Below are positions 7,345 through 10,307 of a stretch of DNA of 64,000 bases, in pieces (positions within the stretch are counted from its first letter, which is position 1; every line of letters starts with the position of its first letter). The notes beneath the pieces are model-generated. The model did no database searches. It was not told where the DNA came from and saw only the letters and a program-made list of their open reading frames with translations. The stretch is from the NCBI RefSeq assembly GCF_020035535.1, contig NZ_CP083349.1, positions 558,001 through 622,000 on the forward strand. The letters are read 5' to 3'. The position numbers were made by a program, and so were the translations under genes. This stretch comes from Ensifer adhaerens (lineage in GTDB: Bacteria; Pseudomonadota; Alphaproteobacteria; Rhizobiales; Rhizobiaceae).

Positions 7345-7671
7345 GATCGTCAGCGCGCCATCTGCCTGCCGGACATCCTCGTCCGCCGGCAAGCCTAGTG
7401 GCTTATGGTTAACGAAGCATTTCCTTTCGCTAGCGGAACATGCCTGTGCCCAGTCACGGAAATGTCGCAAACGGGCGAAGCTTTTCCGTGCCTGCGCCAT
7501 GCCGGCCGCAAAAGATGGCATATGCCCAATTTTTGATCTATCTATATGTTTATAAAGTGAAAAATTTGCGTATTTGGTTTCGGAAGGCAGTTTTGATGGT
7601 GTCGTCATTCTGGAATTGGATGTCGCTATCCGGCGTCTGCCGAGGCGCCTTCCGCGCTTACATATCCTCAC
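7345..7671. other. AT-rich divergent promoter region upstream of the cobalamin riboswitch
   Basis: Non-coding DNA between the leftward hypothetical gene and the riboswitch. The part at about 7520-7580 is markedly A/T-rich against the GC-rich background and is the likely site of promoters for both directions. I see no confident -35/-10 pair or known operator. Confidence 0.4.
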
Positions 7672-7849
7672 TCAAGGTGTCGTCTTCCAAAAGGGAAGGC
7701 GGAGAATTGGGAAGCCGGTCAAATCCCGGCGCTGCCCCCGCAACGGTGGTGGAGCGAAAGTCTCGGCAAAAGGCCACTGGACGGTTCCGTCCGGGAAGGC
7801 GCCGGGCTGGTCCGCAAGGACGGCTCCTGAGCCCGGAAACCAGCCTTGA
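7672..7849 (+). promoter_or_regulatory. Cobalamin (B12) riboswitch upstream of gbcA
   Basis: All core elements of the AdoCbl aptamer are visible in order: AAAGGGAA (about 7690), the GCTGCCCCCGCAAC core at 7731-7744, GCCACTGG at 7773-7780, GGGAAGG at about 7793-7799, and the B12 box AGCCCGGAAACCAGCC at 7830-7845. A closing helix P1 can form between TCAAGG (7672-7677) and CCTTGA (7844-7849). The stem CCGGGCT/AGCCCGG is also present. Such elements turn genes off when coenzyme B12 is abundant, in proteobacteria usually by blocking translation. It lies about 118 bases before the gbcA start, in the right orientation. Confidence 0.95.
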
Positions 7850-7924
7850 CGCACATAACCGTAACGGGTTGCGGCGGGCAGCCGGATCGGAGCCGAGAAC
7901 GTGTGGGCGTATGCCCGTGCGGGT

Positions 7925-7965
7925 TCCTGTCCTGCCTCTCCGAAACATGGCGCATGAGGACAGGA
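7925..7965 (+). promoter_or_regulatory. Hairpin sequestering the gbcA ribosome-binding site
   Basis: TCCTGTCCT at 7925-7933 is perfectly complementary to AGGACAGGA at 7957-7965, which is the Shine-Dalgarno sequence immediately before the ATG at 7967. The nine-pair helix would hide the ribosome-binding site. Placed downstream of the B12 aptamer, it fits a riboswitch expression platform that controls translation. The alternative ligand-free pairing was not resolved by eye. Confidence 0.75.
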
Positions 7966-7966
7966 C

Positions 7967-9211
7967 ATGGATACCAAGACCGATATGCTTCGCAAGCTGA
8001 AGGGCCGGCGTGACGGCTACAGCCTCGATCGGGCCTTCTACACCGACCCCGACTACTACCGGCAGGACCTGGAAAACATCTGGTACAAGGACTGGCTGTT
8101 CATCGGCCATGACTGCGAAATTCCGCGGGCTGGCAACTATTTCACCGTCCAGGTCGGCGACTATCCGGTTGTTGTTACCCGCGATCGCCAGGGCACGATC
8201 CGCGCGCTGCACAATTCGTGCCGGCATCGCGGTTCCCGCGTCTGCACGCAAGCAAAGGGCTCTTCGGCAAAGCTCGTCTGTCCCTATCACCAGTGGACCT
8301 ACGAACTCGACGGCTCGCTGCTCTTCGCACGCCAGATGGGCGAGGATTTCGACAAGGCGGCCCACAGCCTGAAGCCGATCCATTGCGAAACGGTCGGCGG
8401 CTACATCTTCATCAACCTGTCGGAGACGCCGGCAGATTTTGCGGCCTTCCGTGAGCTGGCCACGCCCTATCTCGCGCCGCACCGGCTGGGAGAGACCAAA
8501 GTCGCCTTCGAAAGCACGATCATCGAAAAGGGCAACTGGAAGCTCGTCTGGGAAAACAATCGCGAGTGCTATCATTGCGCCGCCAATCATCCGGAGCTCT
8601 GCCGCACCTATCCAGAGGCGCCGACTGCTACCGGGGTACAGGGCGCCAAGGATGATCCGGTGATTGCCGCCCATTGGGCGAAGTGCGAGGCCGAAGGCCT
8701 GCCGAGCGAATTCCGGATGTCTCCGACCGGCCAGTTCCGCGCCGCGCGCATGCCGCTGGTCGACAATGCCGAAAGCTACACCATGTCGGGTGCGGCTGCC
8801 GTCAAAAGGGCGCTGTCGGCCGATGTCAGGCAGAAGCAGATCGGCACGCTTCTGATGTTCCATTACCCCACGACCTGGAACCATGTGCTTTCCGACCATG
8901 CCATCACCTTCCGTGTTCTGCCACTCGGGCCGGAACTCACCCAGGTGACGACCAAGTGGCTGGTCAACAAGGACGCGGTCGAGGGCGTCGACTACACGCT
9001 CGATGACCTGACCCATGTCTGGACCGAGACCAACGACCAGGACCGCCAGATCGTCGAAGAAAACGCCTTCGGCATCCGCTCGCCGGCCTATGAGCCTGGC
9101 CCCTATTCGCCGGACCATGAAGGCGGCGTGATGCAGTTCGTCGAATGGTACTGCAAGTTCATGGAGCAGCGCCTTGCAGGCGATGCGGCTCCGCTTTCAA
9201 AGGTCGCCTGA
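7967..9211 (+). CDS. gbcA: Rieske non-haem iron oxygenase, glycine-betaine demethylase type (GbcA)
   Basis: A 414-residue Rieske oxygenase alpha subunit. The [2Fe-2S] motif is CRHRGSRVC followed by CPYHQW (C-x-H and C-x2-H, about residues 86-110). The catalytic domain carries NRECYHCAANHPELC with the two iron-binding histidines, and a distal Asp in TNDQDRQIVEENA. The opening (MLRKLKGRRDGYSLDRAFYTDP) and general layout match GbcA, which oxidatively demethylates glycine betaine to dimethylglycine and formaldehyde. A related substrate such as proline betaine or carnitine is possible. The partner reductase follows one base after the stop. The mRNA leader carries a cobalamin riboswitch and a hairpin over the ribosome-binding site. 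Confidence 0.85.
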   Translation: MDTKTDMLRKLKGRRDGYSLDRAFYTDPDYYRQDLENIWYKDWLFIGHDCEIPRAGNYFTVQVGDYPVVVTRDRQGTIRALHNSCRHRGSRVCTQAKGSSAKLVCPYHQWTYELDGSLLFARQMGEDFDKAAHSLKPIHCETVGGYIFINLSETPADFAAFRELATPYLAPHRLGETKVAFESTIIEKGNWKLVWENNRECYHCAANHPELCRTYPEAPTATGVQGAKDDPVIAAHWAKCEAEGLPSEFRMSPTGQFRAARMPLVDNAESYTMSGAAAVKRALSADVRQKQIGTLLMFHYPTTWNHVLSDHAITFRVLPLGPELTQVTTKWLVNKDAVEGVDYTLDDLTHVWTETNDQDRQIVEENAFGIRSPAYEPGPYSPDHEGGVMQFVEWYCKFMEQRLAGDAAPLSKVA

Positions 9212-9212
9212 C

Positions 9213-10307
9213 ATGCAGATGGCATCCTCCTTCCACCATTTCGACGAGCTGCATGTCTGGATCGACCGGCAGCAGATGCTCGAATGCACCTCGGCGGTCG
9301 TCGAAACCGCAGATGTCATGACCTTCACCTTCCGCGCCGAAAAGCCGGCCTGGTTTCGCTACCTGCCCGGCCAGTTCGTCACCCTCGAACTGCCGGTCGC
9401 CGACGAACCGGTCATGCGCACCTATACGCTGTCGTCGACGCCATCGAGGCCGCTGTCGATTGCCGTCACCGTCAAGGCGCAGGCCGACAGCATCGGCACG
9501 CGCTGGATGTTCGACCATCTGAAGCCCGGCATGAAACTGAGAGCCTTCGGCCCGCTCGGCGATTTCAGCTTCGTCCGCCACTCCGGTGACAAGTACCTGT
9601 TCATCTCGGCGGGGTCCGGCATCACGCCGATGATGTCGATGACGCGATGGATGGCGGACTGCGTGCCGGAGACGGACGTCACCTTCATCTCCTGCGCGCG
9701 CCGGCCGGACGACCTCCTGTTCCGTTCCGAGCTTGAGGTGCTGGCGACGCAGATGTCCGGGTTGAGCCTCGGCTTCATCGTCGAGGGCCACGAGGCGCGC
9801 CACGGCTGGCACGGCCTGCGCGGCCGCATCGACGGCGCCAAGCTGCCGCTGCTTGCCCCTGATTTCATGGAGCGCACTGTCTTCTGCTGCGGTCCGGAAC
9901 CGTTCATGCGCGGTGTGCGCGAGATGCTGAAGGCGGCCGGCTTCGACATGGCCCGCTATCACGAGGAGAGCTTCCAGCCGGCGGCAGCGCCTGCTGCGGA
10001 GGAGATCGCCGTCCGCGCCGGCGTGGCGGGCGACAGCGAGGCCGCTGCCGCCAAGGTCGCCTTCACCATGAGCGGCAAGGAGGTCGAGGCGAAGCCAGGT
10101 CAGACGATCCTGCAGACGGCGCGTGCCAATGGTGTGCGGATCGGTGCTGCCTGCGAGGGCGGCATCTGCGGCACTTGCCGGGTGATGAAGGTCGCGGGTG
10201 ACGTCGAGATGAACCACAATGGCGGTATTCTCGATGACGAGATCGACGAGGGTTACATCCTCGCCTGCTGCTCGCGGCCCTTGGGAGATGTCCAGATCGA
10301 AGCTTGA
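9213..10307 (+). CDS. gbcB: Rieske-oxygenase reductase, FAD/NAD(P)H and [2Fe-2S] ferredoxin domains (GbcB)
   Basis: A 364-residue electron-transfer partner. The N-terminal FAD domain has RYLPGQFVTLELP and RTYTLSSTPS, and the nucleotide-binding domain has ISAGSGITPMMSM and FCCGPEPFMRGVREML. The C-terminal plant-type ferredoxin has CEGGICGTCRV and a last cysteine in CCSRP. It passes electrons from NAD(P)H to the Rieske centre of GbcA. The ATG at 9213 is chosen because AAAGG lies eight bases before it; an in-frame ATG 39 bases earlier would overlap gbcA. The gene ends four bases from the stop of the convergent muramidase gene. It should be co-regulated with gbcA through the riboswitch. Confidence 0.87.
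   Translation: MQMASSFHHFDELHVWIDRQQMLECTSAVVETADVMTFTFRAEKPAWFRYLPGQFVTLELPVADEPVMRTYTLSSTPSRPLSIAVTVKAQADSIGTRWMFDHLKPGMKLRAFGPLGDFSFVRHSGDKYLFISAGSGITPMMSMTRWMADCVPETDVTFISCARRPDDLLFRSELEVLATQMSGLSLGFIVEGHEARHGWHGLRGRIDGAKLPLLAPDFMERTVFCCGPEPFMRGVREMLKAAGFDMARYHEESFQPAAAPAAEEIAVRAGVAGDSEAAAAKVAFTMSGKEVEAKPGQTILQTARANGVRIGAACEGGICGTCRVMKVAGDVEMNHNGGILDDEIDEGYILACCSRPLGDVQIEA

Follow-up and report, generated by a model that had tools for sequence, protein, structure and literature searches.

We analysed a 64-kb stretch of the Ensifer adhaerens genome (the window; positions 558001-622000 of contig C1 in an 8.1-Mb genome of three contigs) in which a cobalamin (B12) riboswitch precedes a two-gene operon for a Rieske oxygenase and its reductase partner (Table 1). 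The riboswitch is the sole Rfam match across the window to reach its gathering score, aligning to model positions 1-189 of 189 of RF00174 with 112.4 bits (E 2.3e-27; gathering score 31.5) and enclosing the complete aptamer that a preliminary description of the locus had placed at 7672-7849. Downstream of the aptamer, a hairpin of 9 base pairs lies over the oxygenase Shine-Dalgarno (SD) motif GAGGA at 7956-7960, and its arms, 7925-7933 (TCCTGTCCT) and 7957-7965 (AGGACAGGA), are exactly those previously described. An equal stem over the SD zone arose in 0 of 30 mononucleotide shuffles of the upstream part, and the minimum-energy fold of 7920-7980 (-27.3 kcal/mol) pairs in a longer register, shifted and interrupted by small bulges, in which both the SD and the start codon are covered. 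The modelled hairpin is compatible with translational OFF control.

Table 1. Features of the riboswitch-oxygenase locus, in window coordinates
Feature	Position	Strand	Evidence
Cobalamin riboswitch aptamer (RF00174)	7658-7862	+	Rfam covariance match, again found in whole-genome search
Expression platform (104 nt, aptamer match to start codon)	7863-7966	+	Sequence, spacing, fold
Hairpin over oxygenase ribosome-binding site	7925-7965	+	Stem search, fold
Rieske non-haem iron oxygenase, GbcA/Stc2 family, probable betaine N-demethylase	7967-9211	+	PF00355, PF00848
Reductase partner, GbcB-like	9213-10307	+	PF00970, PF00175, PF00111 (FAD, NAD, 2Fe-2S domains)

Hairpin formation was compared across 120 oxygenase leaders with a placeable start codon (78 with the riboswitch and 42 without, two repeats having been dropped). 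Contiguous stems over the SD separated the groups modestly, with a mean count of 6.27 against 5.77 in shuffles for riboswitch leaders and 5.33 against 5.58 for the others. Base-pair probability of the SD was raised in riboswitch leaders as a group (0.677 against 0.600 in shuffles, p 2.9e-7) and did not exceed shuffles in the 42 leaders lacking the riboswitch (0.534 against 0.562, p 0.08). The window's leader alone is unremarkable by this measure, as 28% of its shuffles reach its value.

The oxygenase is a protein of 414 amino acids with Rieske (PF00355) and Ring_hydroxyl_A (PF00848) domains, and the reductase gene likely starts at ATG 9213, 1 nt past the oxygenase stop codon, in preference to TTG 9174 of the open reading frame list. 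Pfam searches found no B12-binding domain in either protein, and the pair is predicted to act without B12, as a B12-independent isoenzyme would. The preliminary description had reported a gbcAB pair directly downstream of the riboswitch; the oxygenase/reductase pair stands, whereas the names gbcA and gbcB call for caution, being best NCBIfam matches that fall under the curated cut-offs (for the reductase, 394.5 bits against 500 for the GbcB model NF058606). In domain make-up and best NCBIfam models the pair resembles GbcAB of Pseudomonas and Chromohalobacter, from which it differs in the ~47% identity of its oxygenase to gammaproteobacterial GbcA, in its scores below cut-off, and in its riboswitch: all 13 loci over the GbcA cut-off among 299 genomes of the phylum are without a cobalamin riboswitch. 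Among relatives of known function and solved structure, the closest is Stc2 of Sinorhizobium meliloti (57% identity), which belongs to a different subclade. Its pSymA locus, which has no riboswitch, was assigned through a protein residue-for-residue identical to PDB 3vca across 400 positions, a structure we take to be Stc2, the stachydrine demethylase of S. meliloti. The nearest named oxygenase loci are those of Sinorhizobium sp. A49, Ensifer adhaerens SD006 and a Rhizobiales isolate (each 90%).

The riboswitch is conserved before the oxygenase in several families of the order and at a few loci outside it. Among 397 genomes of the order (sample 1), 47 including our own hold an oxygenase match at E <= 1e-120, at 50 loci, and an Rfam scan of all 49 other loci found the riboswitch on the gene's strand in 25, always 92-152 nt upstream of the oxygenase start. 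Sample 2 was drawn from 588 named loci, of which the best 80 were taken; it is therefore rich in close relatives, and its genomes were unfiltered for quality and include metagenome assemblies. Here the riboswitch was called by a motif that had picked out 24/25 positives and 0/24 negatives in sample 1; 56 of the 80 loci were motif-positive, and Rfam confirmed 10/10 positives tried and found none in 14/14 negatives tried. Beyond these samples, the riboswitch also lies ahead of the oxygenase gene at 120.3 bits on a plasmid of Phaeobacter gallaeciensis and at 100.3 bits in S. meliloti Ak57, where the gene order is that of the window. Of seven other new loci scanned in the 299 phylum genomes, two carry it, both in the class and outside the order (L185 and L197). 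No riboswitch precedes the oxygenase homologue at the Paracoccus versutus and Agrobacterium tumefaciens 1D1609 loci. Six riboswitch-bearing oxygenase loci (L028, L029, L117, L125, L126 and L127) showed no reductase homologue within the retrieved locus, and the reductase may be encoded elsewhere.

Presence of the riboswitch tracks the MTTB family (PF06253) of corrinoid-type methyltransferases. MTTB proteins were found in 25/25 sample-1 genomes with the riboswitch (own included) and 8/22 without it (Fisher p 9.4e-7), and in 55/56 and 1/24, respectively, in sample 2. When two sample-2 loci that repeat sample 1 (L131 and L144) were dropped, the pooled 128 rows divided into 79 with riboswitch and MTTB, 37 with neither, 11 with MTTB only and 1 with riboswitch only (Fisher p 3.7e-21, kinship ignored). 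A model fitted to the oxygenase tree gained 14.6 log-likelihood units when the rates at which the riboswitch is gained and lost were allowed to depend on MTTB (likelihood-ratio p 4.6e-7), with modelled riboswitch loss ~50 times faster where MTTB is missing; this custom-script model uses a gene tree and has several rates at their bounds. An MtgD-type protein over cut-off likewise occurs in 23/25 riboswitch genomes against 7/22 others of sample 1; the two riboswitch genomes without one (G204 and G390) are assemblies 74% and 64% complete.

Individual clades illustrate this pattern. In the tested rows, neither riboswitch nor MTTB was found in the Rhizobium leguminosarum/R. phaseoli clade or the A. 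tumefaciens clade; four sample-1 members (G023, G187, G281 and G385) hold 4-5 cobalamin riboswitches elsewhere. Inside a riboswitch-plus clade, the sister rows L081 and L083 are both without MTTB; the riboswitch is absent from one and weak in L083 (57.9 bits, core motifs changed), the single row of the 128 with a riboswitch and no MTTB. Agrobacterium vitis L099, also inside a clade of this kind, has neither.

The window's genome encodes a candidate B12-dependent counterpart, as a search for corrinoid betaine methyltransferase genes showed: MtgB-, MtgC-, MtgD- and MtgE-type proteins are all present, including four of the MTTB family. One MTTB gene (C1:1996563-1998059) is divergent from a gene for an MtgC-like protein with both B12-binding domains, with an MtgD-type methyltransferase over cut-off ~7 kb away (C1:2006538) and a betaine-homocysteine-methyltransferase-type protein (PRK07534) at ~10 kb. 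The oxygenase/reductase pair is not near these corrinoid-route genes. The genome further contains a MetH-like frame of 1276 amino acids, and a PF01717 search of it for MetE gave no match. It holds six matches to RF00174, of which the lowest scores 33 bits; they precede a DUF1636 gene with an ABC ATPase gene, nrdH-nrdI-nrdE-nrdF, the oxygenase operon, bluB, cbtA, and a cobU-type kinase gene with cobW. The match at G000:C2:1548643-1548866 (L002/L020) thus shows that this genome also has a B12 riboswitch ahead of a B12-independent isoenzyme set of a recognised type, the class Ib ribonucleotide reductase genes nrdHIEF.

In relatives, some neighbourhoods join the two sets of genes directly. G254 and G377 both carry, divergently from the riboswitch-oxygenase pair, a homologue of the mtgC of the window's genome (identity 81% and 79%) and beyond it an mtgD-type gene, and a RACo-type corrinoid activase gene was also confirmed at the G254 locus. 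The neighbours of the pair in G044 include a dimethylglycine-dehydrogenase-like gene and an MTTB gene. Leaving aside 8 genomes without a listed metH row, metH lies within 11 kb of the pair in 7/19 riboswitch genomes and 0/20 others. This proximity recurs in several families (G050, G061, G087, G121, G189, G198 and G265; L090 and L102), with the order cobF, metH, riboswitch, oxygenase, reductase in Aminobacter carboxidus (L102). A second copy in G150 (L055) has a glutathione-independent formaldehyde dehydrogenase gene downstream and faces a TonB B12-receptor-type gene with its own riboswitch; here and in L049 of G061, two divergent cobalamin riboswitches share one intergenic region, one on the oxygenase side and one on the neighbour's. 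The formaldehyde dehydrogenase gene fdhA also follows the oxygenase pair in P. versutus and A. tumefaciens 1D1609, and formaldehyde as an oxygenase product would fit these genes.

Drawing on the aptamer, hairpin and operon, their conservation, the corrinoid genes of the same genome, the co-occurrence and some of the neighbourhoods, we consider it probable that the leader is a cis-acting adenosylcobalamin (AdoCbl) OFF switch that chooses between two routes of betaine demethylation. The locus resembles such a switch because, among the relatives sampled, the riboswitch is kept almost only alongside a B12-dependent enzyme of the type that performs this demethylation. With AdoCbl scarce, the aptamer would be empty and the oxygenase ribosome-binding site free, and the Rieske oxygenase/reductase would be made, removing a methyl group with O2 and NADH, without B12, and releasing formaldehyde. 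With AdoCbl plentiful, the aptamer would bind it and the hairpin would close over the ribosome-binding site, leaving demethylation to the MtgB-type MTTB protein, the MtgC corrinoid protein and the MtgD methyltransferase, which would hand the methyl group to tetrahydrofolate or methionine synthesis. With somewhat less assurance, we favour the broader proposal that across many Alphaproteobacteria the B12 level decides which route, and hence which fate, the methyl carbon of betaine takes, toward formaldehyde when low and folate/methionine when high, and that the riboswitch lasts while its corrinoid rival does. The preliminary description had proposed an isoenzyme-type switch, and the conserved leaders, the corrinoid genes and the MTTB co-occurrence support it.

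Several observations weigh against this reading. We infer both AdoCbl as the ligand and the direction of control, and the substrate is likewise deduced, for an oxygenase that scores 513 bits against the curated cut-off of 670 for the GbcA model NF058607 and occupies its own clade of the oxygenase tree, apart from GbcA and the Stc2 subclade. A strong hairpin over the ribosome-binding site is absent from some riboswitch leaders (for example L030 and L050). PF06253 spans methyltransferases for several quaternary amines, so the MTTB counts are not of the betaine enzyme alone. A tree-paired test of the co-occurrence, with few independent pairs, did not reach significance (median p 0.25), with 3.4 pairs agreeing in direction, 0 opposed and 2.6 showing no difference. 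Finally, 11 of the 128 rows have MTTB and no riboswitch. Two of these (L067 and L071) cluster with Stc2, and two (L068 and L072) are additional copies, the other copy of their genome bearing the riboswitch; four (L054, L058, L064 and L069) belong to the clade of these additional copies, yet each is the sole listed copy in its genome and is not accounted for in this way. The remaining three (L048, L066 and L093) are also unexplained: MtgD over cut-off is missing from the genome of L066, and L093 of Ciceribacter lividus DSM 25528 is the single riboswitch-less genome of sample 2 with MTTB, its MTTB gene still adjoining mtgC- and Bmt-type genes (L170).

The same switch logic would hold if the substrate were another quaternary amine, such as stachydrine or carnitine, with an MTTB-type counterpart. 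The higher identity to Stc2 than to gammaproteobacterial GbcA, the score below the GbcA cut-off and the four different MTTB proteins in the window's genome all speak for this substrate, which we nonetheless regard as rather unlikely. In the family tree, L205, the locus of Stc2, forms a group with L067 and L071 (support 100/100), whereas the window's oxygenase is in another clade, for which reason assignment as Stc2 was rejected. Gene context instead favours glycine betaine: the P. versutus gene, 71% identical to the window's oxygenase, stands with folD, electron transfer flavoprotein (ETF), fdhA and BCCT transporter genes, and the Phaeobacter oxygenase gene lies near a glycine betaine ABC substrate-binding gene. 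The co-occurrence in turn argues for a substrate that the oxygenase shares with MTTB proteins.

A role in precursor supply, in which betaine demethylation feeds corrin-ring synthesis with glycine and one-carbon units and B12 shortage induces the operon, appears improbable. It draws on fermentation practice, as betaine is fed at 15 g/L in an E. adhaerens B12 medium according to the available text of PMC9157374 and is listed for an S. meliloti B12 process in that of PMC8123684. However, this explanation predicts no link to MTTB, and it was rejected as the main one since 14 sample-1 genomes with the oxygenase but neither MTTB nor the oxygenase riboswitch retain 1-7 cobalamin riboswitches elsewhere. 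For the same reason, betaine-stimulated B12 production, which the preliminary description had offered as a further ground for feedback, fits less well. Hitch-hiking, with a B12 gene next door (metH or btuB) as the true target of the riboswitch and its position before the oxygenase a coincidence, is scarcely credible and was also rejected as the main explanation. Although metH or B12 genes adjoin in several genomes, the riboswitch has a near-constant orientation and distance relative to the oxygenase start over 25 loci, and at L055 and L049 a second riboswitch, divergent from the first, lies on the neighbour's side. The observed pattern is predicted by an isoenzyme switch and not by supply or hitch-hiking models.

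Regulation of this sort is of a known kind, the available text of PMC3766115 naming 'isozymes of B12-dependent enzymes' as a cobalamin riboswitch target class. As with the riboswitches of metE and class I ribonucleotide reductase, RF00174 here precedes a B12-independent enzyme in a genome that has a B12-dependent counterpart; in contrast to those cases, a catabolic, O2-consuming oxygenase is set against corrinoid methyl transfer. The two betaine routes yield different products, so that a pathway step is replaced and not an isofunctional enzyme. The counterpart itself resembles, without being the same system, the MtgBCDE betaine methyltransferase/split methionine synthase of PMC12478193, whose available text presents MtgBCD as B12-dependent betaine demethylation in an aerobic alphaproteobacterium, argues that the betaine-homocysteine-methyltransferase-type Bmt of S. 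meliloti is MtgE, and uses the word 'riboswitch' once, where it cites the title of a work about a glycine riboswitch. In the literature searched, we found no report of gbcA or any other Rieske demethylase gene preceded by a B12 riboswitch, nor of this pair of routes, and as far as we have seen the oxygenase/corrinoid pair is new to the list of isoenzyme riboswitches. Rodionov et al. (Journal of Biological Chemistry, JBC, 2003) reportedly described a B12-element operon, ardX-frdX, with ring-dioxygenase- and ferredoxin-like products; should the two be one and the same operon, the association by itself would already be in print, and the link to the corrinoid route would not be.

If the proposed switch between betaine routes holds, a catabolic, O2-consuming enzyme would join the short list of B12-riboswitch isoenzyme targets, and presence or decay of the riboswitch before the oxygenase would be a genomic marker of the B12-dependent betaine route. 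Betaine is a major osmolyte. It is also fed to the Ensifer strains that make industrial B12 (available text of PMC9157374), and for both reasons a route choice set by B12 would matter for soil carbon flow and for fermentation. The vanishing of B12 control along with the B12 route would also serve as a genomic test of aerobic B12-dependent betaine demethylation as set out in the available text of PMC12478193.

The window's genome also carries a second Rieske demethylase-like gene with 33% identity to the window's (L019 8366-16952, G000:C1 ~2539366-2547952). Its neighbours are two dimethylglycine-dehydrogenase-like genes and a divergently oriented MTTB-like gene. The latter matches the pyrrolysine insertion sequence PYLIS_3 (RF02510, 44.9 bits), although its frame contains no internal stop.

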